Part shown: one piece after another, positions 9,001-31,320 of the stretch | How the letters are laid out: every line of letters starts with the position of its first letter | How positions within the stretch are numbered: the first letter of the stretch is position 1 | Assembly (NCBI GenBank): GCA_903915625.1 | Contig: CAIWTN010000240.1 | Location: forward strand, 1-38,917 | Source of the DNA: an uncultured Pseudomonadota bacterium | GTDB taxonomy: Bacteria > Bdellovibrionota_B > Oligoflexia > Oligoflexales > CAIYRB01 | DNA: 38,917 bases | Reading direction: 5' to 3' | Made by a program: the position numbers and the translations under genes | The notes under the pieces: generated by a model | The model's input: the letters and a program-made list of their open reading frames with translations, nothing else | Database searches by the model: none | Told to the model about the DNA's origin: nothing

Positions 9001-9165
9001 ATGGAAAAAAGAAATCTCTAGTGCGACAGGTCCAGCGACTGGTTTGCCACTAGTTTCAGTCAGCCGCCCGCTGAGCACGAAGTCTAAAGTAGACTGAGCG
9101 ATCGCTGCTTTGGCGGCAAAGACCAACGTAAACAGGAGAAATGATATGCGCACTACACTACGCAT
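1..9165 (-). CDS. Giant secreted repeat protein, tail-fibre/collar-like (3' end outside window)
   Basis: The frame is open from ATG 9165 to the left edge, 3055 codons with no stop, so the C-terminus is missing. A ribosome site GGGAGGA lies 5 nt before the ATG. Residues 1-24 form a signal peptide with likely cleavage after AIA, before Gln. Residues about 25-120 form a beta-rich domain of the kind that ends in 'VTVPYAAR' before fibre repeats. The rest is repeats carrying recurrent motifs: GGDLTGxYPNPxL, VTVDxKGRVxxGT, GGTGxxSF, GVILGN, TLTNKTL, LKAPDxL, TLPxxxGxxGQLL and LSWVSG. Such motifs are known from phage tail fibres and from large surface fibres of Bdellovibrionota and Bacteroidota. I infer an extracellular, perhaps trimeric, fibre or adhesin. 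No autotransporter or anchor domain is visible because the end is cut off. Plus-strand open frames across this region are antisense shadows. Confidence 0.9.
97..7260 (-). repeat. Eight complete tandem protein repeat units, lengths quantised
   Basis: Using the Leu codon of the GGDL motif as a landmark, copies lie at low coordinates 97, 895, 1693, 2491, 3400, 4309, 5329, 6349 and 7258. The intervals are 798, 798, 798, 909, 909, 1020, 1020 and 909 bp, all exact. The copy at 2491 reads TGDL instead of GGDL. Protein conservation is high while synonymous codons vary widely, so the units are not recent DNA copies. Confidence 0.93.
2840..6830 (-). repeat. Extra 37-residue TLTNKTL modules inside the larger units
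   Basis: Five of the eight units contain one or two additional 111-bp modules of the form 'NPVISxISNTGxLxLP' followed by a [22 protein letters not shown] end. They lie near 2840-2970 (one), 3740-3870 (one), 4640-4890 (two), 5670-5920 (two) and 6700-6830 (one). Each adds exactly 37 residues and accounts fully for the differences between unit lengths. Boundaries are approximate because the modules are circularly permutable. Confidence 0.85.
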
Positions 9166-9170
9166 CGAGT

Positions 9171-9177
9171 TCCTCCC
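9171..9177 (-). promoter_or_regulatory. Ribosome-binding site of the giant gene
   Basis: On the minus strand this reads GGGAGGA, 5 nt upstream of ATG 9165. It fixes the start so that a proper signal peptide follows. Confidence 0.75.
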
Positions 9178-9404
9178 ATTAGTTGCGAACGTTGTTTAGC
9201 GTCGGAACGATTGCGACAAAAGGATTCCAGCTTCGCCTCGGAAAGCGAAGAGTTGGTCACTTTGGAGAATTCAAGCGCCATGTGCCGGAGTCCTCGTTCA
9301 GAGCCAACAGAAGCGGAAACGCATCTGTCCATGGCGATACGTCGGCACAATGTTAGGGGACCTTGAGTCGGAAGTTGGCTGCATCTGAAATATCTGCAAT
9401 ACCC

Positions 9405-13993: not shown

Positions 13994-16744
13994 CTATTCG
14001 ATACATGGCAGGCTTACTGCCTTAAACGCGGCAAATAGTGCTTCCCGGTAAATAGGTTTTGTTAAATAAAAGCTGAAGCCAGCGTCTAGCCCCTTGCTCT
14101 TGTCTTTTGTCGAGGCGTAGGCGCTTAGGGCTATGGCAGGGATGGGGCTTAGTTGTCGTTGCTTCTCCTCTTCGCGCCAGAGGCGGATCAGGTCGTAGCC
14201 ATTTAGGCGTGGCATTGCAATGTCGGACACCATCAGGTCAAATTTCTGGCAGCGAAGTTTTTCAAGGGCCTCCTCGCCATTGGTTGCTGTGGTGACAGAT
14301 GCGCCATTTCTAGAGCAGATTAATTGGAGAGCATTTAAGGCGTCGGGTTCGTCTTCAGCGATCAATATACGAAGACCATTTAGCAGGTTTTTGGCTTCAT
14401 TTTTTAATTTCGTTTCTTTAGGTGGATTAGGCTCATGCGATTGTATCTGCTGGATGGGGAGAGTGATGAGAAAACGACTCCCGTGACCTGGTCCTTGGCT
14501 ATATGCGCTGATGTGGCCACCGTGCATTTCCGTGAGGCTTTTCACTATAGACAATCCGATTCCTAGCCCTCCGGCCTTAGTCGCCGCGCTGTTTTCTTGG
14601 ACAAATCGGTCAAATATTTTATCTAATTTTGCTGGATCGATACCGACGCCAGTGTCTTCGACTTCGATAGTACATTCTGACTGTGACTTTGCCAGTCTAA
14701 CTCGAATCTCACCTGCGGAGGGTGTGAACTTTATCGCATTGCTTAGCACATTCCATACTATTTGATGAAGGCGATCGGGATCTGCTGACAGAGTGAATTG
14801 CTCACAAGGCTGTAACTCAACAGTGATATTTTTTGCTGTTGCAGTCGGATTCATGCCTTCGACTACCTTTTGGACGAGAGCGTTCACATCAATATTATTT
14901 TTGATATCTATCCGCATCTTCCCTGAGATGATTCGGAAAGTGTCTAATAGATCATCGATCATAGCGACTTGCAGTTTGGCGTTGCGATCTATGATTTCAA
15001 TAGCGTTTTTGACCTCTGGATTCTGATCCGGGTTGTCGCGCAATAAATCAATCCACCCAATGATAATGCTAAGAGGTGTTCTAAGTTCGTGCGACGCATT
15101 ACTTAAAAATGCGTCCTTCGCTTTATCCTCTCTTTCTAAATTCTGATAGGATTCAGATAAAATCTGCATTCGTGAAAATGTTTCCTGGACGAATGCAGAT
15201 AAAAAATAGTGGGCGACCTCTTCGTCTTCTTCGCTCCAAGGCCGAGAGAAAAACCTAACCTTCTCTATCCACTCAGCAAAAGATGCGCGTGGAGTCATCT
15301 TTTCAATGGCTCCACTAGGGGGTACAGTTAAAGTATTGGGCTGACCGCCCCAACGTACTTCCTTCGCCTCTTCGGGGCGTACCCATATGACGAAGTCTTC
15401 AAAGTTACGTAGCAGTGGGACTGCTAGTGCTCCAGCAGCATTTGGGTCTGCCTCCGCGAGATCTAAGTCTTGCTTAAGGCAGTCGCTTTTCCATGCAACT
15501 AGAGAATTTTGGGAGTGTAGGTGATTTTCCAAGATTGCCAATGTTTTTGGGTTCATGGATGCGCCGAATATTGCCTTTTTATCACCTACCTTTACAATCA
15601 CCGTAGGACTAGAAGTCATGCTCAAGAGTCGCGGCCCTGATTCTTTCAGATTGAAATCTACTTCTTTACCGAGAGCTAGATCGTTCAAAAATGATTGCAT
15701 AAAAAGCAACGTGTCGTTGCGAACCCTTAATTTTCTTCTTTCACTAAGTTCGGCCAATTTTGCCGCCAGCATGCGGGCGACTAAATCAAAAACCTCCCGA
15801 CTTTCCCGGTCGGGATGCTTGGGCTCCCTGACTTGATGAAACGAAATTAAGCCCCAAAATAGGTCATTAACTCGTATCGGGAGCGACAATGTTGATCGGA
15901 CGCCCATGTTTTCGAGGTATTGGAGGTGTATCGGGGAAACAGCGCGAAGGATACTCATGCTGAGATCGAGATCCTGAGATGATATGGATTTGCTCACTAA
16001 AGGTACAGACTCAGCCTGGCTATCGGCGATAATGCGGCATTGATTTTTAAATAGGATAGCCCTTGTGGGTGCTGGGATGTCTGATGCTGGATATTTTAGG
16101 TGGAGAAACTCGGGCATTTCCTTTTGCTTTGCTTCAGCGATGACTTCGCCATTCCACCCTTGGTCGAAGCGGTAGATTAAGATTCGACCAAATCCGGAAT
16201 GTGCAAATAATTCATCAGCAGTAGCTTTACAGGCGTCCTCGATCGACGCCGATTCATTGAGTCTCGGTATTACATTTTTAATCAGCCGAAGCGAAGTGTC
16301 TTCAACTGTTTCAGCATCAATCTCAAATTCTAAAATTAGCTTTGACATTTGGCGATGACATTTCGCGGAACTGACCCGCCCCATCATTTGATCCGGAAGC
16401 TTCGCAAAAACATGGTGTGTTGATATTAATGCACAGAATTTATCACATGTATCAAATTGACTACGGTCTCCGATGTTGATCAGGTCATAGATATGTCGCC
16501 CAATCAGACTCTCAGCTGTCTCAATATTTAGGACTTCCTCAAAGTTTTTGCTTACTGCTTCGACAATCAGGGAATCCTCGTTTGCGATGATGATCAGGCC
16601 GCAACTTTGGATTGCGCCGCAGAATGCTATTGGCTCATGATCGCAGTCGATTAGATCACTAATTTTGTATGAGAGATTTTTTGACTTTTTCTCGAGAGCA
16701 TCTTTCATGCTGAGAAAGTAATCAGGTGGGGTCTTGTCGCTCAT
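13994..16744 (-). CDS. bphP: Bacteriophytochrome hybrid histidine kinase
   Basis: A red/far-red light sensor kinase of 916 residues. The start is ATG 16744, preceded by AGGTGA at 7 nt, rather than ATG 16786, which has no clear ribosome site. Domains: PAS about 34-130 with Cys34 in DCDHEPI, the biliverdin-binding position; GAF about 155-325 with YPASDIP and SPIHLQYLENMGVRSTLSL; PHY about 335-515 with the tongue motif PRASF; HisKA with phospho-acceptor His552 in NASHELRTP; HATPase with N box NVLSNAIKF, DTGVGI and GLGIGLSIV; and a C-terminal receiver with Asp841 in LMVSDIAMP and Lys in YLTKP. The usual HIPGxIQPHG after the chromophore Cys is changed to AFCGAIQSCG, adding two cysteines. Output partners are not obvious in the window. 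Confidence 0.95.
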   Translation of the reverse strand: MSDKTPPDYFLSMKDALEKKSKNLSYKISDLIDCDHEPIAFCGAIQSCGLIIIANEDSLIVEAVSKNFEEVLNIETAESLIGRHIYDLINIGDRSQFDTCDKFCALISTHHVFAKLPDQMMGRVSSAKCHRQMSKLILEFEIDAETVEDTSLRLIKNVIPRLNESASIEDACKATADELFAHSGFGRILIYRFDQGWNGEVIAEAKQKEMPEFLHLKYPASDIPAPTRAILFKNQCRIIADSQAESVPLVSKSISSQDLDLSMSILRAVSPIHLQYLENMGVRSTLSLPIRVNDLFWGLISFHQVREPKHPDRESREVFDLVARMLAAKLAELSERRKLRVRNDTLLFMQSFLNDLALGKEVDFNLKESGPRLLSMTSSPTVIVKVGDKKAIFGASMNPKTLAILENHLHSQNSLVAWKSDCLKQDLDLAEADPNAAGALAVPLLRNFEDFVIWVRPEEAKEVRWGGQPNTLTVPPSGAIEKMTPRASFAEWIEKVRFFSRPWSEEDEEVAHYFLSAFVQETFSRMQILSESYQNLEREDKAKDAFLSNASHELRTPLSIIIGWIDLLRDNPDQNPEVKNAIEIIDRNAKLQVAMIDDLLDTFRIISGKMRIDIKNNIDVNALVQKVVEGMNPTATAKNITVELQPCEQFTLSADPDRLHQIVWNVLSNAIKFTPSAGEIRVRLAKSQSECTIEVEDTGVGIDPAKLDKIFDRFVQENSAATKAGGLGIGLSIVKSLTEMHGGHISAYSQGPGHGSRFLITLPIQQIQSHEPNPPKETKLKNEAKNLLNGLRILIAEDEPDALNALQLICSRNGASVTTATNGEEALEKLRCQKFDLMVSDIAMPRLNGYDLIRLWREEEKQRQLSPIPAIALSAYASTKDKSKGLDAGFSFYLTKPIYREALFAAFKAVSLPCIE

Positions 16745-16959
16745 AGACAGGTCACCTCGATCCAGCGGACATGCCCAGCCGGCCATTATCCTACGGACTA
16801 ACAGAATGAAGTACGCGACGCTATTAAGAATTTTATAAGTTTATGGTCAAATTCAAGAACCGACTTAAGTTACGCTTGGATTTGCCGAAACGAGAAAGGC
16901 CTGCAAGTAAAAGCAGGTGAGTATTGTGAATTACCAAATAGCTTCGAGTAACCGAACTC
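16745..16959. other. Divergent intergenic region, bphP / PEGA gene
   Basis: A 215-bp region that must hold the promoters for both directions. Only a short CCTGC/GCAGG inverted repeat (16900-16917) was noticed. No confident promoter or operator can be named. Confidence 0.4.
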
Positions 16960-19351: not shown

Positions 19352-19966
19352 TTACTTCAATAATTCAAGAGCTGCCTTAGCTGTGGGGTCATTGGGATAG
19401 ACTGCAAGTACGTTGTGATACGCAGATTTTGCCTCGGTATTTTTCTTCAAATAGCCTAGGCAAAATGCCTTCTGCACTAAGAAAGTTTGATCACTGGGAT
19501 ATAGCTTAAGCATTTTCTTTGCGGTTTCTAGTCCATCATCAAACTTTCCAAGCATGATGTCCGCGCGAATCTGGTTCCAGCTGGCAGCGTAATGATCCGG
19601 TGAAATTGAGAGAATCTTTTCTGATACGCTAGCTACATCGCTCCAGCGAGCCTTAGCTACATAGACATTCATCAGGCCGAGTAGTGCTTCCACTGACTTG
19701 GGCTCTGCTTCTGTTGCTCTCGTATAATGTTCTAGTGCATTGGCCGTGATGCCGGAACTAAGGAACAGATAACCTAAACGTAGATTCAGAATGTATGAAT
19801 CTGGCTGTCTTTTCTGAGCCTTCGCGATCACAGCGACGGCGTCTTTGTAGTTGTGCCTTTGCTCAAACTTGTACGACTCGCTAAGTTCATCCGCGACATC
19901 AACGTATGATGCGGCCTGTGCCGAAACTGGAGATAGAAGAGCTAAGCTAAGAAAAAATGATTTCAT
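19352..19966 (-). CDS. Periplasmic TPR protein
   Basis: A 204-residue protein. The signal peptide covers residues 1-18 with cleavage after AQA. Four to five tetratricopeptide repeats follow, recognisable from A/L-L-G-Y/L...A..Y patterns such as NLRLGYLFLSSGITANALEHY, EALLGLMNVYVAKARW and VQKAFCLGYLKKNTEAKSAY, ending in a capping helix. TPRs mediate protein-protein contacts; no catalytic motif is present. The gene starts 12 bp after the barrel gene, and its AGGAGT ribosome site overlaps that gene's TAG stop. The two are therefore translationally linked and may form one complex at the outer membrane. Confidence 0.85.
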   Translation of the reverse strand: MKSFFLSLALLSPVSAQAASYVDVADELSESYKFEQRHNYKDAVAVIAKAQKRQPDSYILNLRLGYLFLSSGITANALEHYTRATEAEPKSVEALLGLMNVYVAKARWSDVASVSEKILSISPDHYAASWNQIRADIMLGKFDDGLETAKKMLKLYPSDQTFLVQKAFCLGYLKKNTEAKSAYHNVLAVYPNDPTAKAALELLK

Positions 19967-19978
19967 CTGCGATCACTC

Positions 19979-21157
19979 CTAAAAGAAAAAAGTGCCGTTA
20001 AGTCCGAGTGCAGTCACACTAGCCGTAGAATTGGTCGAGGTATTCTCAAGACTATCCTTGGCATAAAATAATCCAATGGTAGCGCTAGTCTCGTAGAAGT
20101 AATCTAGGGACAGCTTTTGTCCACCTTTATGTACAGTAGAATTACTCCAGACCACTAGGCCATCGCCTAGGACGGCAAAAACCTGCTCGCCAGACCAGGT
20201 TGATAGAGCGAGAGAGATTGGAGATAAAGTATAACGAAGCCCGATCTCCGTAGATGTATAGGCTGATTTGAAAGCTGTAACGTTTGGATATTTAGACTTA
20301 CTAAAGGTCATTTGTGGGGCGATGTTGTGATACTTCAGGTCAAGACCAAGTAGGCCCCAATCAAAGGCATTACCAAAGGCTGTGGAAAAATTTCCGGTAA
20401 TCTGATTTACATCAAGATTAGCAGGATAATATTTTGGATATTTGCTCATTGCATACGTCATGCCAACCTGAGTCATGTCGTGGAACCAACGGGCTCCCGC
20501 AATGATATTGTAAGCACCACTTAGCGTCGACGCTGATGATGATTGCGTACGGTACCCGAGTTTAACACCGATCGCATCGATGAACCTTTGCTCAGCAACT
20601 ATAAGCATCTGAGTTTGGCTATAGTCGGAGCCATCGACTAGCTTGATGGAAGCGGGTTCGTAGTCGACAGTAACGGAGGTAGACGCAGTGTTGTAGCTGG
20701 CCATCAAGTCGTAAAAATACCCGTCCTTCAAATTTTGGTCACCAGAGAACGTTAGACTGCCGGCGACAGCACTAATGCTCCATGGCTTAGGTTCAGGAAC
20801 GGTGGAAAGTCTTTCGATTAGGGCTTTCAGTGTCGCACCTTGGTTAGTTGGCAAGGACCTAGGATTGATCCTACTAGCCGTCTCGTAGCTTAGGGCATAG
20901 TCGCCTAGTTTGTCCTGACATTGCGCGATATAGAAATTCGCGGTATCGGCCTCGGGTCCGCCACTCTTTGCCACGCCAGCGAGGTCAAGCATAGCTTCGA
21001 CGCAGTGATCGCGCTCGATCTCCTTCTTTGCTCGAGCGATCGAGGACTTTTTTTCAGACTCAGTCATTGAGCGAGCATAAACGCTGCCGCCCAAGACAAA
21101 ACCGATACTTATTGGGATTAGGCGACATGCGAGCAGCACAGACCTCGAGCATCTCAT
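19979..21157 (-). CDS. Outer-membrane beta-barrel protein with helical N-terminal domain
   Basis: A 392-residue protein. The start is ATG 21157, preceded by AGGA at about 8 nt, rather than the upstream ATG 21184. The signal peptide covers about residues 1-29, ending VYARS. Residues about 35-115 are helical and TPR-like, with conserved Cys in HCVEAMLDLAG and YIAQCQDKLGDYALSYETA. From about 125 onward amphipathic strands alternate (SISAVAGSLTFSGDQ, SVTVDYEPASIKL and so on) to a terminal FFF. A C-terminal aromatic residue is the BAM recognition signature of outer-membrane proteins. This looks like the YaiO-type arrangement of TPR plus barrel, but assignment to that family is only a suggestion. 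Confidence 0.75.
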   Translation of the reverse strand: MRCSRSVLLACRLIPISIGFVLGGSVYARSMTESEKKSSIARAKKEIERDHCVEAMLDLAGVAKSGGPEADTANFYIAQCQDKLGDYALSYETASRINPRSLPTNQGATLKALIERLSTVPEPKPWSISAVAGSLTFSGDQNLKDGYFYDLMASYNTASTSVTVDYEPASIKLVDGSDYSQTQMLIVAEQRFIDAIGVKLGYRTQSSSASTLSGAYNIIAGARWFHDMTQVGMTYAMSKYPKYYPANLDVNQITGNFSTAFGNAFDWGLLGLDLKYHNIAPQMTFSKSKYPNVTAFKSAYTSTEIGLRYTLSPISLALSTWSGEQVFAVLGDGLVVWSNSTVHKGGQKLSLDYFYETSATIGLFYAKDSLENTSTNSTASVTALGLNGTFFF

Positions 21158-21251
21158 GGTCGGAATCCTTATCAATGTTAACATTCGTGACGTTTATTAA
21201 ATCATAGTTTCAGAAAATATTTTTGGTATCGACGTTACGATTAACTACTTC

Positions 21252-23366
21252 TTAAATTTGGCAGTAAGCCTCATCGCCGATCCGTATAGACTTAATCCCG
21301 AGGATCGGGTCGAGTTTTGCCTCGCTCGTAAATTTCTTGCCATTGAACCTGACCTGTCCCGACACTGTAGTCCCCGACATATCTAGTTTATAACTCCCTT
21401 TGGGAGTCGCCTTAACGCCAAAAATACGTCCAATTTCCAGGACCCAGCGGTATGGTCCCCTCCAGGCAAGGTCTATTGGGTAATTGTCTGTGAAGGTGAG
21501 CTCATGGGAGTATGTGAGTGGTACTCGGGGAATACAGGCAAAAATCTTGGCTAGAATGGACTTCATGTTCCCGTCAAAGTCGTAAAAATAGAAGACACTT
21601 TCTTGGATCCAAAAATATAGACGGGATCCATTCCCATCGCAGAGATAACTTCGGCCCGAGAGAGGATCTTTTGCCGAAGTTAGAGCAAGTAGCTCGCCCG
21701 TAGTCTTTCCATCTTTGCTTAGGCGGCTAAATAAGAAGCGCCGACCGGAGGGCCATACAAAGGCATAATCCAGAGCCCGGTTTCTCCTGAACGGCTCTAT
21801 AACTGCGTCTTTAGGTGGTACCGCGTGATAGCTTAAATGACCGTCTGCCAGATAGCTAGCGATGCGAAATGGCAGGGTCTGTGAGGCAAAATAAGGAGAG
21901 AGTTGAACCTGTACATGCAGATGAGGTTGGGCTGAGTAGCCGCTATTGCCACACTGTGCTAGCAGCTGCCGTCCAGATACGTAGTCGCCAATGTTAACGC
22001 AGACGGAATCCTTCTTAAGATGGCAAAGCGATACATGGCAGCCCGCATCGCTGCGAATGATAATGAAATTGCCCCAATTTCGGGTTTCGTTTAGGCCGCC
22101 AATCAGGTTGTCATCTTGTGTCTGTTCCACAGCTACTATGTAACCTGAGCACGGTGCCAACACTTCAGCTCCGAACCCGTGGTAATGTCTTAACTCCAGT
22201 CCCGACTCTTCAAATTGGCGCCCGTCAGTGCCAACCTTGACAAAATCCATTGCATACTGCCAGGGTCCTTGGTGGGTCTCGTTACCCGCGAAACCCTGCG
22301 TGACTTTCCAACTGCCATCGAACGGCAATTCGATCGCATGATCTGGGTAGCCGAAGCGGTCACGGCGAGCGCTGAGTCTTTCGTAGGATTCTTCCGGAGT
22401 ACGTCCAATGAATAAATTGCGCCATTTCGATTGGTAATAAATCAGCGCTTGCATCAGCCCGATCACCACGATGTTGAATGGTGCGGCAGAGGGTCGGGCG
22501 CCGAACATGGACAGAGACTGACTTAGTCCGTCATAAAACAGCACCGTTAAAATTACGGCCAGGGCACCTATTAGTATGGACGTAATGGATGGAGTGAGAA
22601 ACACCGTCGAAATGAGAGTTCCAGCGAAGATATAGTTGTAGGACTCAGGATTGGCCACTGCATCGTGCCATATTCCCGACTTTAGAAACTGCAGAGATAC
22701 CCCTAGAAGAAAGCTTAGAAACATAGATAGAAATAGTAGGCGTGAGTAGGCCAAAATAATCAGGGCGAGACCAGCTCCGATCCAAAAATTACTCTGAAAA
22801 ACCACATACGCCATGGCGAAGCAAAAGCCTTTGATCAGCTCAGGTACACCGCCAGGTCCCCAATAGGCATCGGCCTGGTGGAATATGGTCATTTGATAAA
22901 TATGATCGTAACGAAGCGTCGCAAGTGAGAGAAAAATATTCGCTAAAGCAAAAGGCAGAGACATCACCGGCAGCTGTAAGGGGGTGGCCACTCGAGTGAT
23001 GGTAATGGTTAGGAGCAATGTCCCGATGGATACTGCCGTGAGTAGGGGGAGGGTGCTCCACTGCAGCCTGAATACATATCCAACGGACAAACCAATTAGA
23101 ATCACATTCCTGAGATAGGTGTTATTCCACTGATATGCCTTGCGGATGCCGAGGCCAAAGCCAAAAGCTAAAGCTATAAAAAGCGAAAGTAGCCCTGACA
23201 GACCTACATTTGGGTGAATGAAGGTTAGCGCTGCAACTACACCACCGAATTTCCAGTCATCGACGACGAAAATCTGTGCATAGGCACTGAATAGTTGTTG
23301 CACAGATACAGTCAAGGAACGCATCGCTGGCAACTTAAACCTACCGACACCCACGAAGGCCCCCAT
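21252..23366 (-). CDS. Urea-transporter-like membrane domain fused to M23 peptidase domain
   Basis: A 704-residue two-part protein. Residues about 20-315 hold roughly ten membrane segments. The motif LPVMSLPFALANI (133-145) and the two similar halves resemble the SLC14/urea transporter family (PF03253). After a basic loop, residues about 345-490 form a LytM/M23 zinc endopeptidase: His365 and Asp374 in HQGPWQYAMDF, then CHLKKDSVCVNIGDYVSG and the HLH signature His482/His484 in PHLHVQ. M23 enzymes cleave peptidoglycan cross-links. About 215 further residues of beta-rich sequence follow. The PLP decarboxylase stop is 8 bp upstream. No strong ribosome site is seen, and ATG 23324 is an alternative start. 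Coupling of transport and wall cleavage is inference. Confidence 0.82.
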   Translation of the reverse strand: MGAFVGVGRFKLPAMRSLTVSVQQLFSAYAQIFVVDDWKFGGVVAALTFIHPNVGLSGLLSLFIALAFGFGLGIRKAYQWNNTYLRNVILIGLSVGYVFRLQWSTLPLLTAVSIGTLLLTITITRVATPLQLPVMSLPFALANIFLSLATLRYDHIYQMTIFHQADAYWGPGGVPELIKGFCFAMAYVVFQSNFWIGAGLALIILAYSRLLFLSMFLSFLLGVSLQFLKSGIWHDAVANPESYNYIFAGTLISTVFLTPSITSILIGALAVILTVLFYDGLSQSLSMFGARPSAAPFNIVVIGLMQALIYYQSKWRNLFIGRTPEESYERLSARRDRFGYPDHAIELPFDGSWKVTQGFAGNETHQGPWQYAMDFVKVGTDGRQFEESGLELRHYHGFGAEVLAPCSGYIVAVEQTQDDNLIGGLNETRNWGNFIIIRSDAGCHVSLCHLKKDSVCVNIGDYVSGRQLLAQCGNSGYSAQPHLHVQVQLSPYFASQTLPFRIASYLADGHLSYHAVPPKDAVIEPFRRNRALDYAFVWPSGRRFLFSRLSKDGKTTGELLALTSAKDPLSGRSYLCDGNGSRLYFWIQESVFYFYDFDGNMKSILAKIFACIPRVPLTYSHELTFTDNYPIDLAWRGPYRWVLEIGRIFGVKATPKGSYKLDMSGTTVSGQVRFNGKKFTSEAKLDPILGIKSIRIGDEAYCQI

Positions 23367-23374
23367 AAAACCGA

Positions 23375-24784
23375 TCAGGAAACGTTGCGACTCTTAAAGC
23401 CTAAAACTGTTGCCTGTTTTTGCTGGAGATCTTCCGGCAATACTTCCAGGTTTTCGACGGCTTCGAGACTCTCTTTATGGCGGATCAGGTCTACTTTGCC
23501 GTTTTTTCTGACCAAAACTACGGCCGGCCTGTACTGGATGAACTGCATCCATTGCGTCACGTTGTAAGCACCGACTGGCGACAGTACGAGACGCTTCCCT
23601 ACTCTTAATGGAGGGAGCATCAAGCTGTTGTCGACTACGTCAATGTTCATACAGAGAGGGCCAAAGAGGACGGCGGGTTCGAGAAAGGAGCCTTCGTCAC
23701 CATCCAGTTCAAAAACCGGACGATACCAAGTCGACGTGTAGAGCAGGTTGACACCGGCATCTAGTACATAAGCACGTCTTGCATCCGGTAGCAGCTTGCG
23801 CGAAATTACCGAGGTAATGAGAAATCCGGCTTCGTCGATTAAATGCCGCCCAGCTTCCAAAACTAAGGTCGGGAGTTCCGAATCAGCGAAAATCCTTTTT
23901 AGGCAGCTAGTGATCGCGATCGCGTATTCGGAAATGTTGGGCACAGCGACTTCTGGAGACTGGTAAACGCCTTTTAAGTGGCTCTTAGACGGAAATCCGC
24001 CGCCCATATCAATGTATTTTAGGCGGATACCAGTGTCACTTTCGATCTCCAGAAATAAGTTCGCCATTTTTTCCGCGGCGATTTCGTACGCCTGTACGGA
24101 CAGCATGAAGGTACCTATATGGCAGTGGATACCTTCGAAATCGATGCCAGGAGCCTTGGCAAGGCGGCGTGCAGCATCCATAGCCTGTCCGCTTTCGATG
24201 TTGAGGCCAAATCTACTCCACTGCGGATAAACGCCCGTGTTCATATTGACGCGCAGGCCTACCCTTGCTGTCAGCTTGATCTCAGTCGCGATCGACTCGA
24301 TCTGATAGATTTCGTCCATGCTGTCTACATGGATGACAGCTCCCTCTTCGATCGCGCGCTTCAAAGCAGCTTTAGGTTTATACGGACCATTGAATATGAT
24401 TTGTTCCCCAGGGACTCCAAGGGCGCGCGCCTTTTCGTACTCAAAGTCACTAACCACTTCAGCAATCGCACCTTCTTCGTGAAAGATAGCGCAGATGGCT
24501 TTTAGATAGTTAGTTTTGTAGCTCCAACCGAAGACCATCTTTGGGTAAAATCGCTTAAATACTTCGGTGTAATTTGTGAAGGCATTCCTAATAGCGTCTT
24601 CAGAGAAGACAAAAAGTGGAGAGCCAAACTTTTGCGCTAGTTCAGATACGGGGACTTTGCTGATCGAGGTTCGAACGGGCACAGAATTATTTGACGCAGC
24701 GCCGTGCTTTGCGTATAGCGGTCCGCCTAGCTTTACCATGGACGGTTTGGAATATGGCCGAGTTAATTTTTTGGTCTGTTTCAT
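23375..24784 (-). CDS. Fold-III PLP-dependent decarboxylase (LysA/ODC family)
   Basis: A 469-residue enzyme of the ornithine/diaminopimelate decarboxylase family. Catalytic landmarks are present: PLP lysine Lys90 in WSYKTNYLKA, His222 in HCHIGT (ring stacking), the phosphate loop MGGGFP (260-265), EAGRHL (310-315), Cys378 in GPLCMNID (the residue contributed across the dimer) and GAY in SPVGAYNV. It therefore looks active. Substrates in this family include meso-diaminopimelate, ornithine, arginine and carboxynorspermidine; sequence alone does not decide. The N-terminal 45 residues are an extension over LysA. It lies 52 bp after the ATP-grasp gene and 8 bp before the transporter-peptidase fusion. 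That context suggests a modification pathway rather than housekeeping lysine synthesis. Confidence 0.85.
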   Translation of the reverse strand: MKQTKKLTRPYSKPSMVKLGGPLYAKHGAASNNSVPVRTSISKVPVSELAQKFGSPLFVFSEDAIRNAFTNYTEVFKRFYPKMVFGWSYKTNYLKAICAIFHEEGAIAEVVSDFEYEKARALGVPGEQIIFNGPYKPKAALKRAIEEGAVIHVDSMDEIYQIESIATEIKLTARVGLRVNMNTGVYPQWSRFGLNIESGQAMDAARRLAKAPGIDFEGIHCHIGTFMLSVQAYEIAAEKMANLFLEIESDTGIRLKYIDMGGGFPSKSHLKGVYQSPEVAVPNISEYAIAITSCLKRIFADSELPTLVLEAGRHLIDEAGFLITSVISRKLLPDARRAYVLDAGVNLLYTSTWYRPVFELDGDEGSFLEPAVLFGPLCMNIDVVDNSLMLPPLRVGKRLVLSPVGAYNVTQWMQFIQYRPAVVLVRKNGKVDLIRHKESLEAVENLEVLPEDLQQKQATVLGFKSRNVS

Positions 24785-24836
24785 AAGTCATCGTCCAAGG
24801 ATTAAGTGAGCGAAGAAACTAGCAACCGAAACATGC

Positions 24837-25859
24837 TTAAACCGAGCTCGCTAATTTAAAGAACTTATTGATATCGGTAACGATTTCATAGGTATAGCGG
24901 ACGAAGTATTTTCCAACCGGATATTCCGACGTTCGCCCTACGTCTATACCTTGCATGAGGCGTAGCAATCGCTCCGGGAGGTTAATGCCAACGCCAGTAG
25001 CGAAGTAGACCCAAGCAGGGAAGCGCGGATTGATCTCAATTAGAAAAATGTCCTCACTATTTTGAATGCACTCAAGCTCAAAAGGGCCGCGCCATTTTGT
25101 ATGGCTGACAAAGCGTTCCGCTAAATCGTTTAACGCTGGATGATCAATCGTCACGCCTGTCCAGATTTTACCAATCGAAGTGGTCATCAGTTTCTTGATA
25201 GCGACACTGCCACACAGTCCGCCCTCACCATCGCCCAGTCCGACCAAATTAATTTCGATACCTGATACCGGCTTTTGCAGAAGAATCGGCAGGCCCCAGT
25301 CAGCAGATATCTCGATGAATTTGTGGACTGCATCCTGCAAGTTATAGGCCGCGCTCGCCTTGTAATAGCGTCCCTTCACAAAAATCGGCCAATCCGGGTC
25401 TTGGTCAGCGAATTCCTGTAGTTCATCTATCGAATTAACGAGGGCTGTTTCTGGGTATTTAATATCTATATCAGCACAAAGTTTGATGAGCTTCTCCTTG
25501 CTTCGCAAAGAAAACTGATCCTCGGTCGGGAGGAAGGTTTTAATGCCCAGCTCACTCAGTTGATTCTGATGTTTGATATAGAGTGGGAGCTCGACATCTA
25601 AGCACGGGATTACAGCTTCTATTTCGTGGATTTTTTTCACATGAGCAAGTGCTTCGCTTAGAGCATTCCACCCTTTAGTCGGATACGGCATGCGATGCAC
25701 GTGATCGATCATAAAGTCCATGTAATTGCCGGGATCATGGGCATCATAGGTCAGCCCGATAATGCGGCTAGCCGCTCCGGATTCTCTTAAACTACGGGCG
25801 ACGGGAACCCCAGGTCCAGGATTGTCGGTCGCGTTCATACCTGAAATGCCTACATGCAC
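24837..25859 (-). CDS. ATP-grasp ligase
   Basis: A 340-residue enzyme with a pre-ATP-grasp Rossmann-like domain (1-110), a linker LPTEDQFSLRSKEKL and the ATP-grasp core (about 120-310). ATP-binding lysines are likely Lys162 in IFVKGRYYKAS and Lys196 in LLQKPVSG. Metal ligands sit in FELECIQ and in LIEINPRFPAW (Glu275, Asn277). ATP-grasp enzymes activate a carboxylate as acyl-phosphate and join it to an amine or thiol. Closest in style to the PylC/CarB-like small-molecule or peptide ligases. The ATG lies 2 bp after the PqqD-like stop codon, indicating tight coupling. The substrate is unknown. Confidence 0.88.
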   Translation of the reverse strand: MHVGISGMNATDNPGPGVPVARSLRESGAASRIIGLTYDAHDPGNYMDFMIDHVHRMPYPTKGWNALSEALAHVKKIHEIEAVIPCLDVELPLYIKHQNQLSELGIKTFLPTEDQFSLRSKEKLIKLCADIDIKYPETALVNSIDELQEFADQDPDWPIFVKGRYYKASAAYNLQDAVHKFIEISADWGLPILLQKPVSGIEINLVGLGDGEGGLCGSVAIKKLMTTSIGKIWTGVTIDHPALNDLAERFVSHTKWRGPFELECIQNSEDIFLIEINPRFPAWVYFATGVGINLPERLLRLMQGIDVGRTSEYPVGKYFVRYTYEIVTDINKFFKLASSV

Positions 25860-25861
25860 GG

Positions 25862-26104
25862 TTATATCACTCCGTTGATGCGTAACATTTGCATGAATTC
25901 CTGAGTATCCGTTTCAGCTTCATGTAGTGGGATCTCATAGGTTGCGGCAAGCGTGCGTGCTGCCGCGTCTTCTGATTGTCCCTTTTTCAATTCCGTCAGA
26001 ACTAGTCGCGCCGTGTCATTGAGTTGATAGGTCTCACCCGTGCGCGGATCAAAACAGAACCCCTCGTCATTTGTGGCGAGTTGCAACAGACGGCTATGAG
26101 TCAT
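25862..26104 (-). CDS. PqqD-like small protein
   Basis: An 80-residue protein. The start is ATG 26104, immediately preceded by AGGTGGAG. An upstream GTG falls inside that ribosome site and is unlikely. The pattern FDPRTGETYQLNDTARLVLTELKKG followed by two helices (EDAAARTLAATYEI, DTQEFMQMLRINGVI) matches the PqqD winged-helix fold. That fold often serves as a RiPP recognition element binding a leader peptide or a carrier for a modifying enzyme. It directly precedes the ATP-grasp gene, so it probably presents that enzyme's substrate. No precursor peptide gene was recognised nearby. Confidence 0.82.
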   Translation of the reverse strand: MTHSRLLQLATNDEGFCFDPRTGETYQLNDTARLVLTELKKGQSEDAAARTLAATYEIPLHEAETDTQEFMQMLRINGVI

Positions 26105-26190
26105 GGACTCCACCTTTGTGTAATTTTTTTATTATGTTACTCGATCACTCTGCGTGTAGCAAATAGATCGTGTTTAGTCATTAGTCGGCG

Positions 26191-27519: not shown

Positions 27520-28251
27520 TTAGTCCTTAATTCTAAGATTGTTGATTGAGTTGATCGAAGGTTTGTTAGCTTGCATCGGCTGGATGAACATCGCTTGATC
27601 GAGTTGCTGCTGGTTTAGGCCCTTCTCCTTCAGGAAATAACTAGAAAGGCTTGAGCTAAGTGTCTGTGGTCCAACCATGACCTGAGACCAGTCGAGTCCT
27701 ATCGAAAGCTTGTTGGACGTTGCTGCACGCATCATGCTTCCCGCACTTACCATGGCTAGCTGGTCTGTTTGCCGCCCGCCTGATGGTGCTGCGTTGCCTT
27801 GATCTACGACAAAAAGGTCGAGCGGTAAGGCGAGAACTGTTTTTGTCTCACCTGACGGTAGTAACGCCGTGCCAGCCTGATTTGGGTCGAGTAAGAGACG
27901 AACTTGCCTATAGTCGCGGGAGGCGATCGGCTGGTTTTCTACCAACGTGACGAGATCACCGCGACTACGATCAGTCAGATCGATGTCTTTGACTGAATCG
28001 AAGATGATAGTCTCAGAGCCAGTATTCTCAGGCTTGTTCATTTTATCGTTATTAATCAGTTGTAGTCCACGTACCCTAATTGACAGGCTTTTTATCGACG
28101 TCATAGTGGCTGTTTGTAAATAAATAGACGCCGTAGTCGGCGTTTTGCCTGTTGGGTTACCGGAATTTACTCCACAACCATCGATTGACAAGCCGAACAG
28201 CAACCATAGTGTGCAGAGGATAGATTGGGACGTGTATAGACGTTTAATCAC
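27520..28251 (-). CDS. DUF4382-like lipoprotein
   Basis: A 243-residue protein. The start is taken as GTG 28251 with AAGGAA upstream. The longer frame starts at a TTG inside the regulator gene and puts the signal peptide 20 residues in. The N-terminus has a hydrophobic stretch CTLWLLFGLSIDGC and then GVNSGNPTG, i.e. a lipoprotein-like signal followed by the Gly-Asn-Pro linker common in this group. The body (SLSIRVRGLQLIN, IDLTDRSRGDLVTLVENQ, DYRQVRLLLDPNQ) resembles DUF4382, a beta-sandwich of unknown function in secreted proteins. It sits 10 bp after the TIGR02147 gene. Similar pairs of TIGR02147 regulator and lipoprotein are, to my knowledge, recurrent in Bdellovibrionota. Confidence 0.65.
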   Translation of the reverse strand: MIKRLYTSQSILCTLWLLFGLSIDGCGVNSGNPTGKTPTTASIYLQTATMTSIKSLSIRVRGLQLINNDKMNKPENTGSETIIFDSVKDIDLTDRSRGDLVTLVENQPIASRDYRQVRLLLDPNQAGTALLPSGETKTVLALPLDLFVVDQGNAAPSGGRQTDQLAMVSAGSMMRAATSNKLSIGLDWSQVMVGPQTLSSSLSSYFLKEKGLNQQQLDQAMFIQPMQANKPSINSINNLRIKD

Positions 28252-28261
28252 GGCCGTTTCC

Positions 28262-29179
28262 TTATGATTCCTGATTTGATTTTTGTTTTTTATCAGTAGA
28301 GCGCGCAATCGGAAACATTTGCATATTGAGTTGCATCACGGTATCAGCGCCCGTCGCGTGACTAGCGGCAAGAAACATAAGGTAGCTGCGAAACGACTGA
28401 ATAGATTTTTTGATGATATCCATACCCTCGGTTGTCACCGCGAGAGTCAAGGCACCGATTTCTCTCTCCTGGTATGGAACGGTTTCAATCGATTCTTTGC
28501 CGAGATCGATCATCTTCTGATGGAAACGAATGATACCGATACCCGGGACTTCACTTTTGCTTTCAAAGTCTTTGACGACTTTAACGTGCCTCCCTAGTTC
28601 AGGGTCAAAGCGGATGCATCCTAGCTTCTCCAATATTTCAAGGCTCTCTTTAATCTCTTTTTCGGTAATCGCAGCATTCAAATGCTGGGCGATCCAAGCT
28701 GTATCAGATGTGAAATTTTGCAGCCCGACCATTTCGAAGATAATAGCACGGTGCCATTCTCGGTAAAAATCGAGCTCCATCTGTGCTTCGACGTCACCGA
28801 GACTTTGCCGTTTGCAAGACAGTAAGTCGCTAAGCAATTGCTCCCGCTCGTGCGGATTGCGCTCTTCGCTGTATTGGGCGAGTAGCACGAACGCCTTGCG
28901 CTCAGAAGCAGCCAAGTCCAGGGCGGTCGCCATCCGCTCAACGCTCTGAAGATTTGGCAACCTCCTACCTTTTATGATCAGCCAAGAGCTATTCCCGAGG
29001 CCTAGGCCCAGGTCTAAGCTAAATTCTTTGTACGAATACTGCTCAAGTCGACTCTTGCTACGCTGGTAAACGCTCGCCAAATAGCTGCCAAGATCCAGGT
29101 AGCTGGAAGGCTGCATTTCGGCCGCCGTCTCTCGCAAGATAGCAAGCCTCGCCATTTGACCTTTGGGACGTCTACCCAT
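28262..29179 (-). CDS. TIGR02147/DUF4423-family regulatory protein
   Basis: A 305-residue soluble protein. The start is ATG 29179, preceded by AGGTGGAG at 6 nt, rather than the TTG at 29239. The N-terminal part (about 30-110) has the family pattern SYLDLGSYLASVYQRSKS, SYKEFSLDLGLG and SSWLIIKGRRLPN. That region resembles a cryptic helix-turn-helix in which a LGL-G-N-S motif replaces the usual HTH register. The central part has WHRAIIFEMVGL and a winged-helix-like segment (WIAQHLNAAITEKEIKESLEILEKLGCI). The family is restricted mainly to Fibrobacter and Bdellovibrionota and is presumed to be transcriptional. It heads the ten-gene minus-strand array and faces a divergent fasciclin gene across a region with a long inverted repeat, its likely operator. 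Confidence 0.85.
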   Translation of the reverse strand: MGRRPKGQMARLAILRETAAEMQPSSYLDLGSYLASVYQRSKSRLEQYSYKEFSLDLGLGLGNSSWLIIKGRRLPNLQSVERMATALDLAASERKAFVLLAQYSEERNPHEREQLLSDLLSCKRQSLGDVEAQMELDFYREWHRAIIFEMVGLQNFTSDTAWIAQHLNAAITEKEIKESLEILEKLGCIRFDPELGRHVKVVKDFESKSEVPGIGIIRFHQKMIDLGKESIETVPYQEREIGALTLAVTTEGMDIIKKSIQSFRSYLMFLAASHATGADTVMQLNMQMFPIARSTDKKQKSNQES

Positions 29180-29541
29180 GAGTATCTCCACCTTTGTTCC
29201 GACTGATTTATCGGTAAGATTTTGAAAAAACTTGAGCAAACGTCTTTGTCGCCAATATTACTGAATTTTATTACATTTTGGTGACTCTCTTTGGATAGAC
29301 AAGCGCAAAGCGCCAGACGATATGTGCGAATTTGGAGTACTTGGCGACAAATATTTGTTTGCTTGTGTAACTATTAAATTCCAGAATTGCGATAAAAAAT
29401 ACTTCTGTAAGTTACTGTTTTTAATTGTACTAACGTTTTGAATTAAAGTTTTTTCCTGTATGCGCCGATAAGGGGATTGTGAGTTGAATTCGGGGACTAA
29501 AAAAATCGACCAACTGCTTACTTAAACGGAGCAACAAGCTT
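29180..29541. other. Divergent promoter region, regulator / fasciclin gene
   Basis: A 362-bp AT-rich stretch with no gene. It holds the ribosome site of the TIGR02147 gene and a long imperfect inverted repeat (listed separately). Promoters for both directions must lie here, but no strong -35/-10 pair can be named. Confidence 0.6.
29236..29362. promoter_or_regulatory. Two inverted half-sites, candidate operator
   Basis: GCAAAC-3 nt-TTTGTCGCCAA at 29236-29255 is mirrored by TTGGCGACAAA-5 nt-GTTTGC at 29341-29362. The 11-bp core is perfect and the outer 6 bp are also perfect. The copies are 85 bp apart in the divergent promoter region. A DNA-looping or cooperative regulator site is inferred, most simply for the adjacent TIGR02147 protein. 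Confidence 0.5.
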
Positions 29542-31320
29542 ATGAGAAACATGCGACTCGGAACCGTCTTTTGCTGGCTGCTGACACTGCTAACAGCGTG
29601 CGGGCCGCAATTACAGAGTAGCCAAGACAATCGTAGTGGTAGCGCAAAAAAGGGGAGCGATGCCCTAAAGATGTTAGAGTTGAAGGGCCAATTTAAGATG
29701 CTGTCCTCTGCGATGTCCTCTGCCGGCTTAGTGGAAAGCCTTAAAGGTGACGGCCCATTCACCGTATTGGCTCCGAACGACCAGGCCTTTGCTAAACTTG
29801 GCGACGACATGGTCGATGGCCTTCTCGCTAATCCTGTCATGTTAAAGCGCGTCTTGCAGTATCACGTCATGTTAGGGGCTATGGACGCAGACAAAGCCGT
29901 CAAAACTGGGACTGTTAAAACCCTCAACGGTGACAGCGTGAGTTTTACGGAGCGTAATGGGAAGAAGTTTGTGAACGGTGCTGCCGTCATCGAATCCAAT
30001 ATGCCCGCAAGCAACGGTATGGTTCACGTCATTGATACTGTCCTGATGCCACCTGCGGTAGAGTCGTCTAACGATATTGTTGGCGTCGCAAGTGGTGACG
30101 GCCGATTTAGCACCCTCGTGAGTGCATTAAAGGCTGCTGACTTGGTTGCTACTTTACAGGGAGCTGGGCCGTTTACCGTCTTTGCGCCAACCGATGACGC
30201 CTTTGCCAAGCTCGGATCTGACACCATCAACGCTCTCTTGGCTGATAAGGCAAAACTATCCAATATCTTGCTCTACCACGTAGTTACTGGTGCGGAAGTC
30301 GACTCTGAAAAGGCTAGCCAACTTACCGAAGCTACAATGGCGAATGGTGCAAAAGTCAGCATCAGTCTAACGAATGGTATACTTAAAATTAACGACTCGA
30401 CTGTTATAATCAAAGATATCAAAGCATCTAACGGTATCATTCACGTTCTCGACACGGTCCTTCTACCCCCAGCCAATGCAGCCGCTGCTGATACTCTCAA
30501 AGATATCGTCTCAATAGCTAGCAACGACAGTCGCTTCACAACTTTGGTCACCGCGCTTAAGGCAGCTGATCTAGTTTCTACCCTAAGTGGTGCCGGACCG
30601 TTCACTGTCTTCGCGCCGACTAACGACGCATTTGCAAAGTTAGGCAATGACACTATCACCAAGCTACTAGCGGACAAGGCACAACTTTCTAACATCCTTC
30701 TCTATCATGTCGTTAGTGGCAATGCTGTGGATTCGCAAACGGCCAGCACACTGAAAAATGCTAGCATGGCAAACGGTGGCACAGTTCAAATCAGCGCGAT
30801 GGATGGGAAACTGCTCATCAACGATTCGATGGTCGTAGTGAAAGATATCAAAGCATCAAATGGCATCATCCATGTGATTGACACAGTCTTGATTCCCCGT
30901 CCTGCTGCACCAGTGGCTCAGGATATCGTCTCGATCGCTAAAGCCAACGGCAAATTTCAGACACTAACTACTGCTCTGCGTGCGGCCAACCTTGATACTC
31001 TTTTAGCTGGTCCAGGCCAATTTACAGTGTTTGCTCCGACGGACGCAGCTTTTGCTAAGCTGGGCGCAGCTACTATCAACGCCCTTTTAGCAAACAAAAC
31101 TAAGCTGACCAATGTTCTACTCTATCACGTGATTCACGGTTTCGCTGTCGACTCCGGCACAGCCATCCAATTGGATGGAGCAACGATGGCGAATCATCAC
31201 CTTGCTCACTTCAGGTCTAATAACGGCGTTCTGCATATCAACAATGCGCAAGTAGTGATCAAAGACATAAAAGCATCAAATGGCATCATTCATGTGATCG
31301 ATACTGTTCTGATTCCCTGA
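29542..31320 (+). CDS. Lipoprotein with four fasciclin (FAS1) domains
   Basis: A 592-residue protein. The signal peptide has a clean lipobox, LLTAC, with Cys20 as the acylation site. Four FAS1 domains follow (about 40-172, 177-310, 320-453 and 456-592). Each shows GPFTVLAPND.AFAKL (H1 box), LLYHVV (YH motif) and NGIIHVIDTVLIP (H2 box). FAS1 domains mediate cell adhesion and matrix binding, so this is probably a surface adhesin or biofilm matrix protein. Domains 2-4 are more alike than domain 1, and a DNA stretch coding DIKASNGIIHV recurs near 30414, 30841 and 31261, pointing to internal duplication. A CGGAG ribosome site lies about 10 nt before ATG 29542. Two hairpins follow the stop. Confidence 0.93.
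   Translation: MRNMRLGTVFCWLLTLLTACGPQLQSSQDNRSGSAKKGSDALKMLELKGQFKMLSSAMSSAGLVESLKGDGPFTVLAPNDQAFAKLGDDMVDGLLANPVMLKRVLQYHVMLGAMDADKAVKTGTVKTLNGDSVSFTERNGKKFVNGAAVIESNMPASNGMVHVIDTVLMPPAVESSNDIVGVASGDGRFSTLVSALKAADLVATLQGAGPFTVFAPTDDAFAKLGSDTINALLADKAKLSNILLYHVVTGAEVDSEKASQLTEATMANGAKVSISLTNGILKINDSTVIIKDIKASNGIIHVLDTVLLPPANAAAADTLKDIVSIASNDSRFTTLVTALKAADLVSTLSGAGPFTVFAPTNDAFAKLGNDTITKLLADKAQLSNILLYHVVSGNAVDSQTASTLKNASMANGGTVQISAMDGKLLINDSMVVVKDIKASNGIIHVIDTVLIPRPAAPVAQDIVSIAKANGKFQTLTTALRAANLDTLLAGPGQFTVFAPTDAAFAKLGAATINALLANKTKLTNVLLYHVIHGFAVDSGTAIQLDGATMANHHLAHFRSNNGVLHINNAQVVIKDIKASNGIIHVIDTVLIP

Follow-up and report, generated by a model that had tools for sequence, protein, structure and literature searches.

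The window analysed here is one entire contig (C240; CAIWTN010000240.1, 38,917 nucleotides) of an uncultured Pseudomonadota bacterium, from an assembly of 4.42 Mb with a completeness of 96%. On its minus strand lie four closely packed genes that encode a PqqD-family protein, an ATP-grasp ligase, a pyridoxal 5'-phosphate (PLP) decarboxylase and a urea transporter (UT) fold joined to an M23 metallopeptidase (UT::M23). The gene set was confirmed, occurs very widely and, within the searchable open-access literature, is apparently undescribed. Its decarboxylase begins with a conserved tail that resembles the leader of a lasso precursor peptide, and its PqqD protein carries, at the equivalent positions, residues with which a recognition element (RRE) for ribosomally synthesized and post-translationally modified peptides (RiPPs) of the lasso type holds such a leader. 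We suggest that this pair may hold together a pathway that makes an amino acid conjugate. The four genes are as follows.

25862..26104, minus strand: PqqD-family protein, predicted discrete RRE of the lasso B1 type, 80 aa from an ATG at 26104 (an alternative GTG start at 26113 gives 83 aa, and residue numbers N32 and D69 below are counted from this GTG)
24837..25859, minus strand: ATP-grasp ligase, PRK12767/carbamoyl phosphate synthase (CPSase)-like, 340 aa, predicted amino-acid ligase (NCBIfam, PDB profile)
23375..24784, minus strand: PLP decarboxylase of the alanine-racemase fold, nearest FslC/FigC (NCBIfam, profile, Foldseek)
21252..23366, minus strand: UT::M23 gene (Pfam UT and Peptidase_M23)

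Conservation of the gene set

An earlier note, made by a model from the letters of this DNA alone, had described four packed genes with gaps of 2, 52 and 8 bp; on re-reading the coordinates, all four genes and the spacing between neighbours were found as described. An alignment of the ligase was scanned against 84,980 species genomes, which yielded at least 581 pattern matches, at least 542 of them confirmed, and the best 80 loci were retained. Neighbourhoods were counted in 79 of these, one near-identical relative being excluded, and all denominators refer to loci with sufficient sequence. The PqqD gene adjoins the ATP-grasp gene in 76 of 76 assessable loci and the decarboxylase gene does so in 72 of 73, while UT::M23 accompanies the ligase in 58 of 61. 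The same gene order and strand recur across phyla, between which the ATP-grasp proteins share about 50% identity, and clustering of this kind lies far beyond chance. Intergenic distances mostly fall between -4 and +10 nt, which suggests translational coupling; the ATP-grasp and PqqD genes, separated by 2 bp in the window, overlap by 4 nt in many other loci. The earlier proposal of an undescribed system had been made to depend on co-occurrence of the homologues in other genomes, and the neighbourhood search found the set recurring across phyla. The 79-locus census supports both the set as a whole and the adjacency of ligase and PqqD recognition protein, and the open-access literature searched held no description of the combination, only one general paper on RREs.

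According to their record labels, the hosts include Campylobacterota, Aquificota, Thermotogota, Verrucomicrobiota, Planctomycetota, Cyanobacteria, Gemmatimonadota, Elusimicrobiota, Thermodesulfobacteria, several proteobacterial groups and others. Nearly all carrier genomes are metagenome bins, so some phylum labels are doubtful, but the set is also carried by Thermodesulfobacterium hydrogeniphilum DSM 14290, by Brasilonema bromeliae and on a complete chromosome of a Chromatiaceae bacterium. Where a host is named, its label points to a diderm lineage. Within the window's own small phylum (56-58 genomes per search), each genome with a UT-domain protein has a relative of the ligase adjacent to it. 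In two congeners (G001, G002) the operon persists, its transporter domain having diverged to below the Pfam threshold; a third (G003) lacks the gene set, which marks the set as accessory. No close relatives of the ligase were found in plasmids, a PHROGs search gave no match, and the four proteins matched none of the PADLOC models for anti-phage defence. At one locus (L079:4960-5654), a GIY-YIG-like open reading frame (ORF) of 95 aa, identified by eye, lies between the decarboxylase and UT::M23 genes.

A leader-like tail on the decarboxylase and its predicted recognition protein

The N-terminal tail of the decarboxylase contains two conserved elements.

24686..24784, minus strand: decarboxylase tail, aa 1-33, predicted RRE recognition sequence (conserved yet disordered in the AlphaFold2 (AF2) model)
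24737..24754, minus strand: Y11-S-K-P14-S-M16, lasso-leader-type motif [Y/W]xxPx[ILMVF] (homologue alignment)
24701..24709, minus strand: K26-H27-G28, second tail element, [K/T]-[F/Y/H]-[G/A] (homologue alignment)

The first element, Y-x-x-P-x-[I/L/M/V/F], is present in 71 of 71 canonical decarboxylase tails (at L057, an apparent exception, it lies in frame upstream of the start first chosen), and a divergent clade has W-x-x-P-x-[L/I/M/F] in 14 of 14, for a total of 85 of 85 decarboxylases. The motif [Y/W]xxPx[L/V/I/F/A] is the ligand of discrete lasso RREs (PMC13381572, PMC12710340), and exchange of Tyr and Trp in the leader motif is documented for these proteins (PMC13381572). The tail continues as a conserved [N/S]-[K/T]-[F/Y/H]-[G/A], with K26 in 68 of 71 members and G28 in 63 of 71, plus Ala in 6. 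Counting that Gly as +1, Tyr falls at -17, Pro at -14, Ile at -12 and Lys/Thr at -2; the register of lasso precursors is Y-17, P-14, L-12, a conserved residue at -2 and G+1 (PMC10368454). In the AF2 monomer, residues 1-33 are disordered (predicted local distance difference test [pLDDT] 36-47) and the body is confidently modelled, and a predicted tail that is disordered yet conserved is usually the look of a docking peptide. The paralogous LysA and SpeA of the same genomes have no matching tail at the N-terminus, with two formal matches sitting upstream or internally in long SpeA-type frames. Across the whole genome, the motif stands near the start of a plausible gene in the operon decarboxylase only, and the relaxed pattern Y..P.[ILM]...[KNT].G gave no other good candidate, although leaders outside this pattern would be missed.

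Intergenic gaps of more than 60 bp across the 80 loci contained no conserved precursor ORF, in agreement with the absence of a precursor peptide reported in the earlier note. ORFs of 50-57 aa between the decarboxylase and UT genes at L042, L045, L047 and L054 have the look of a dispersed genomic repeat and were rejected as genes. No further conserved enzyme gene, such as the Asn-synthetase-like cyclase lasso C, was found among the clustered neighbours, the rest of the genome not being searched for one. Because no precursor is encoded, the set is by definition not a RiPP or lasso cluster; the leader motif stands on the decarboxylase only, and RiPP recognition logic appears to be applied to an enzyme. 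To judge from these sequences, the decarboxylase itself, by way of its leader-like N-terminus, probably takes the place of the missing precursor.

The PqqD protein is, on the evidence of its profile matches and conserved residues, a predicted leader-binding RRE of the lasso type. It is the only PF05402 protein of the genome (1.2e-12), and its best NCBIfam match is lasso_PqqD_Strm (4.7e-14, under the cut-off of that model). Against the lasso PqqD model NF033530 it reaches 52.4 bits where the curated cut-off is 70, and it therefore resembles the lasso type without being a lasso-pathway member by that model. Searched against the PDB, a profile of 26 members matched TbiB1 (2.6e-12), TfuB1 (6.7e-11) and the PqqD of pyrroloquinoline quinone (PQQ) synthesis (6e-5); TbiB1 and TfuB1 are listed as leader complexes (PMC13381572). 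In the structure of LppB with its leader, Asp70 makes a hydrogen bond to the Tyr of the leader, and Asn33 makes one to the kink at its Pro (PMC13381572). The profile alignment with LppB (24-73 to chain residues 48-97) has equal lengths and keeps the 37-residue spacing of Asn and Asp, so that D70 corresponds to D69 in the window and N33 to N32. D69 is conserved in 77 of 78 PqqD members, and position 32 is Asn in 65 and Ser in 13. The protein had been called a PqqD-like carrier or recognition protein; these leader-binding residues favour recognition, whereas the carrier half of the suggestion is not borne out. A role as a LysW-like covalent amino acid carrier was considered and rejected, the family having neither a conserved C-terminal Glu nor an invariant Lys or Ser. 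In a Pseudomonadota clade (L123:659-1477, L126:668-1474, L128:2466-3284, L131:252-1082; by eye), PqqD carries a TetR-like DNA-binding region fused at its N-terminus, as if the RRE doubled as a regulator or sensor.

Ligase and decarboxylase chemistry

Hidden Markov model searches confirmed through Pfam the earlier PqqD and PF03253 plus M23 assignments. The ATP-grasp protein, a divergent enzyme of the PRK12767 type, lies below the Pfam cut-off. It was recognised through the PRK12767 'carbamoyl phosphate synthase-like' models (1e-21), whose curated cut-offs it likewise does not reach; the closest solved structure to its profile is 2pn1 (7e-11).

The decarboxylase matches Orn_Arg_deC_N (2.3e-36) and Orn_DAP_Arg_deC in Pfam, FslC (3.6e-70) and lysA (2.5e-66) in NCBIfam and, by profile, FslC at 4e-88 compared to diaminopimelate decarboxylase (DAPDC) at 5e-66, and the first-ranked Foldseek match is 7kh2 (template modelling score TMt 0.87). 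Residues K90 (the PLP lysine), R313, C378, M379, D382 and Y407 are invariant in the family. Alignment to 7kh2 and 1twi shows the FslC-type signature GP-x-CM-x-x-D and VGAYN, with Met in place of the LysA Glu. Its score against the FslC equivalog model NF041039 is 236.9 bits (cut-off 500), which indicates the same subfamily and a different enzyme, and that against the LysA model TIGR01048 is 223.9 bits (cut-off 297.9), with the C-E motif absent. Sequence and predicted fold thus agree that it is nearest to N-citrylornithine decarboxylase (FslC/FigC). Its earlier description as a diaminopimelate/ornithine/arginine decarboxylase with all catalytic residues holds for the residues, but the simple family identity gives way to FslC. 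The FigC clade, including SbnH, AcsE, MccE and BtrK, acts on amino acids conjugated through the side chain (PMC7857480, PMC8503589). From an FslC-like decarboxylase with an adjacent ATP-grasp gene we infer that ligation would come first and decarboxylation second, by analogy with FslA/FslC and BtrJ/BtrK, and the conjugation and decarboxylation steps proposed in the earlier note are both supported.

The channel-peptidase protein and the genes downstream

UT::M23 comprises three predicted domains.

22455..23294, minus strand: urea-transporter-fold membrane domain, aa 25-304 (PF03253, AF2, Foldseek)
21867..22340, minus strand: M23 metallopeptidase domain, about aa 343-500, predicted cytoplasmic (PF01551, Foldseek)
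21255..21854, minus strand: beta-rich C-terminal domain, aa 505-704 (AF2 strands, pLDDT about 90)

The C-terminal beta domain belongs to the protein in 42 aligned relatives. PF03253 matches at 3.8e-30 (105 bits against a cut-off of 25) and Peptidase_M23 at 6e-11. AF2 models the protein confidently (pLDDT 90), and its first 310 residues form a full-length urea-transporter match (dvUT, 3k3f, TMt 0.83) with ten transmembrane (TM) helices and the LP-box; Foldseek also matches this part to UT-B, and the M23 part to lysostaphin/LytM. Most members have Glu, Ala or Ser at the position of dvUT Q24 and Ala, Thr or Ser at that of E187. We take Q24 and E187 to be polar pore residues that contact urea, and their replacement makes urea doubtful as the cargo. 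In two congeners (L027:10587-12677, L028:5720-7783), the UT model gives no score on the membrane half of the M23 protein, which retains an LPVL box; at L027 an ABC ATPase and an ABC-2 permease follow this diverged protein.

All five metal and catalytic residues of the M23 domain (H365, D374, H449, H482, H484) are present in 63 of 63 members, and by sequence the domain is expected to be active as a metallopeptidase, in a compartment unusual for one. Urea transporters cross the membrane with ten TM helices and keep both termini inside, as established for the mammalian proteins. Averaged over the 63 members, Lys plus Arg number 2.3 in the N-terminal tail and 4.65 at the M23 junction, against 0.38 in the loop between the repeats. 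Homology to urea transporters and these positive-inside charges point to a cytoplasmic M23, and a role at the cell wall is predicted to be unlikely; the cell-wall endopeptidase of the earlier note is unsupported on the same grounds. At L069:3165-6422, the reading frame of UT::M23 continues through a signal-like segment into TPR repeats (1085 aa in all), by fusion or an effect of assembly; such a joint would fit an internal M23 and an external TPR part.

Two further genes downstream probably belong to the operon.

19979..21184, minus strand: probable outer-membrane beta-barrel with an N-terminal helical region (also the next gene in genomes G005, G004, G001 and G002)
19352..19966, minus strand: TPR protein with an N-terminal signal-like segment (TPR_19, 3.9e-14)

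A TPR gene, a barrel gene or both lie within 3.2 kb downstream of UT::M23 in 37 of 48 assessable loci, and barrel homologues follow the operon in other phyla too.

Fused variants and a distant clade

In three genomes (G006, G038, G041), ligase and decarboxylase form one protein of ~750 residues. Its neighbours are a urea-transporter-fold protein that stands alone and a Cys-His-Asp transglutaminase-like protein, for which neither Pfam nor the PDB gave a sequence match.

L029:9454-13254: fusion, ~202-aa Cys-His-Asp protein, UT-fold protein
L030:9330-13133: the same three genes
L031:9269-13147: the same three genes

No PqqD was found genome-wide in these three (completeness 77-91%), and the fusion linkers lack YxxP. 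The sequence GKYGA is invariant in all three linkers and echoes the K-[F/Y/H]-G of the tails. Since motif and PqqD are both missing from the fused genomes, the RRE and its tag can be read as a tether that fusion replaces; in the simplest reading, they join ligase to decarboxylase non-covalently and become dispensable after fusion.

A profile of the fused variant, searched against 398 Pseudomonadota genomes, matched 28, of which 14 loci were examined. In this distant clade ligase and decarboxylase occur together in 14 of 14 loci, and PqqD was recognised in all but two. Two TGA-containing "fusions" proved to be ordinary adjacent ligase and decarboxylase genes. The same profile gave no match in Verrucomicrobia, in a search that had no positive control.

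A proposed pathway and its alternatives

We propose a conserved, RRE-held pathway of diderm bacteria that makes a conjugate, and we give this model roughly an even chance. The lasso-type PqqD would grip the disordered decarboxylase tail ([Y/W]xxPx[I/L/M]...[K/T]x[G/A]), with no separate precursor, and would thereby dock the decarboxylase onto the translationally coupled ATP-grasp ligase. The ligase may link an amino acid, by a group of its side chain, to a partner (acyl, amine or peptide), after which the FslC-like decarboxylase would strip the alpha-carboxyl of the conjugate to give an amine. This small, largely uncharged product could then pass through the urea-transporter-fold channel. M23, on the cytoplasmic end of the channel, might trim the tail (at K-x-Gly), the conjugate or the product, and the TPR protein and outer-membrane barrel would finish the route. 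In more general terms, a RiPP leader may have moved onto a metabolic enzyme of a widespread small-molecule pathway, an enzyme that a discrete RRE guides or covalently loads without any precursor, and a ligase-decarboxylase fusion could substitute for the RRE and leader tag; here our confidence falls a little short of even. RRE-guided biosynthesis is known, but there is a fair chance that the principle used here is new.

Several observations sit uneasily with this model. Locus L086 has only PqqD and ATP-grasp, and L108 is without UT::M23. The AF2 predictions are of monomers, and the tail might lie packed within the decarboxylase dimer instead. Of the 78 PqqD proteins, 13 have Ser in place of N32 and one lacks D69, while K26, for its part, falls short of invariance, with Thr at L069 and at L133-L135 of the divergent clade. 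The KYG element is retained in the RRE-less fusions, for which pure docking does not account.

Retention of GKYGA without an RRE keeps alive an alternative hypothesis, which we consider unlikely, in which the decarboxylase tail is itself the substrate of a RiPP-like protein modification, with YxxP as leader and K-x-G as core. PqqD would present the tail, the ATP-grasp ligase would add an amino acid (at Lys26 or nearby), the decarboxylase would act on the tethered residue, and the cytoplasmic M23, or the transglutaminase-like Cys hydrolase of the fused variant, would free the product; the tail would serve as a swinging arm like the carriers BtrI and LysW. Such a scheme fits the shared register of lasso leader plus Gly1, the presence of K26 in 68 of 71 tails and GKYGA in every fused linker, the nearly constant presence of an encoded hydrolase (M23 in 58 of 61, or the Cys-His-Asp protein) and the activity of BtrK on a carrier-bound residue. 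However, several members replace K26 by Thr, Pro or Asp, which weakens Lys26 as an obligatory acceptor, M23 cleavage at K-x-G is putative, and we know of no precedent for an enzyme that bears its own RiPP core. A classical RiPP, whose unlinked precursor is bound by PqqD, modified by ATP-grasp and decarboxylase and freed of its leader by M23, would explain the lasso type of the RRE, and M23/lysostaphin-like enzymes do cleave at Gly and RiPP precursors may be unlinked. The likeness of the tail would then be mimicry or coincidence, which is hard to reconcile with its motif in 85 of 85 decarboxylases; the operon gaps of 80 loci hold no conserved small ORF and the relaxed whole-genome pattern, blind to leaders outside it, gave no good second candidate, and we regard this reading as very unlikely.

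The model of the earlier note, with processing of amino acids from the wall or attachment of an amine to the envelope, and with M23 as a periplasmic wall endopeptidase on a channel, strikes us as quite unlikely. The M23 catalytic residues are intact, and the barrel and TPR genes, in hosts labelled as diderm, put the pathway at the envelope; but the even TM count, homology to dvUT and UT-B and positive-inside charges all point to a cytoplasmic M23, and in L069 the signal-like TM segment lies between the M23 and TPR parts. Lastly, the tail could be structural or regulatory (dimer packing, a degron or translational coupling) and PqqD a regulator, and the genes would then serve a side pathway of polyamines or lysine that has a channel for urea or ammonia. 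The fusion of PqqD to a TetR-like helix-turn-helix region in the Pseudomonadota clade would suit this, and the AF2 monomer is compatible with dimer packing. Exchange of Tyr and Trp together with the leader-binding residues of PqqD suits an RRE instead, the Glu of the LysA C-E motif is Met here and dvUT E187 is lost in most channels, and we judge the idea highly improbable.

If the decarboxylase tail is the RRE ligand, genome mining for RREs that requires a precursor peptide would miss real pathways. In that case the ligands of orphan PqqD proteins would also become a directly testable question, and one would expect many diderm bacteria to make a probably exported amine or amide and an M23 peptidase to act in the cytoplasm.

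Other features of the window

Outside the operon, the minus strand of positions 1-9195 is a single open frame of at least 3065 aa with repeated tail-fibre/adhesin-like units that reaches the contig end, and many short plus-strand ORFs in this region result from it. A bacteriophytochrome-type hybrid histidine kinase (PAS_2-GAF-PHY-HisKA-HATPase-REC) is encoded at 13994-16786 on the minus strand. At 27520-29239, also on the minus strand, the gene for a TIGR02147/DUF4423 regulator overlaps that for a DUF4382 protein, and a plus-strand gene at 29542-31320 encodes four fasciclin domains in one protein (460 bits).

Comparison with known systems

The FslA/FslC pair (FigA/FigC, rhizoferrin) has a decarboxylase of the same subfamily, the best match by sequence and fold, and follows the same logic of ligation before decarboxylation. 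Its ligase is an NRPS-independent siderophore (NIS) synthetase, whereas that of the operon is an ATP-grasp enzyme, and the YxxP tail lies beyond the part that aligns with FslC. BtrJ/BtrK, of the butirosin side chain, likewise combine ATP-grasp with an alanine-racemase-fold decarboxylase for a conjugated amino acid; unlike there, no acyl carrier protein was found at the operon, and the operon decarboxylase is closer in sequence to FslC than to BtrK. UT::M23 shares the full-length fold, the LP-box and the Asn motifs of the urea transporters dvUT and UT-B, but is fused to M23 and a beta domain and has the Q24 and E187 pore positions of dvUT mostly replaced. With the M23 peptidases lysostaphin, LytM and DipM it has in common the fold and all five metal and catalytic residues; in contrast to these, its M23 domain is predicted to be cytoplasmic, has H-x8-D as first motif and is tethered to a channel. 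The discrete lasso RREs (TbiB1, TfuB1/FusB1, PadeB1) and the LPP RRE LppB share with the operon PqqD the fold, the nearest solved sequences and the Asp (conserved) and Asn (mostly) that hold the leader Tyr and Pro. Their partner motif, [Y/W]xxPx[LIVFA], is also shared, but there it stands on a precursor peptide and here on the decarboxylase, and in place of a lasso cyclase and B2 peptidase the operon has an ATP-grasp ligase and a decarboxylase.

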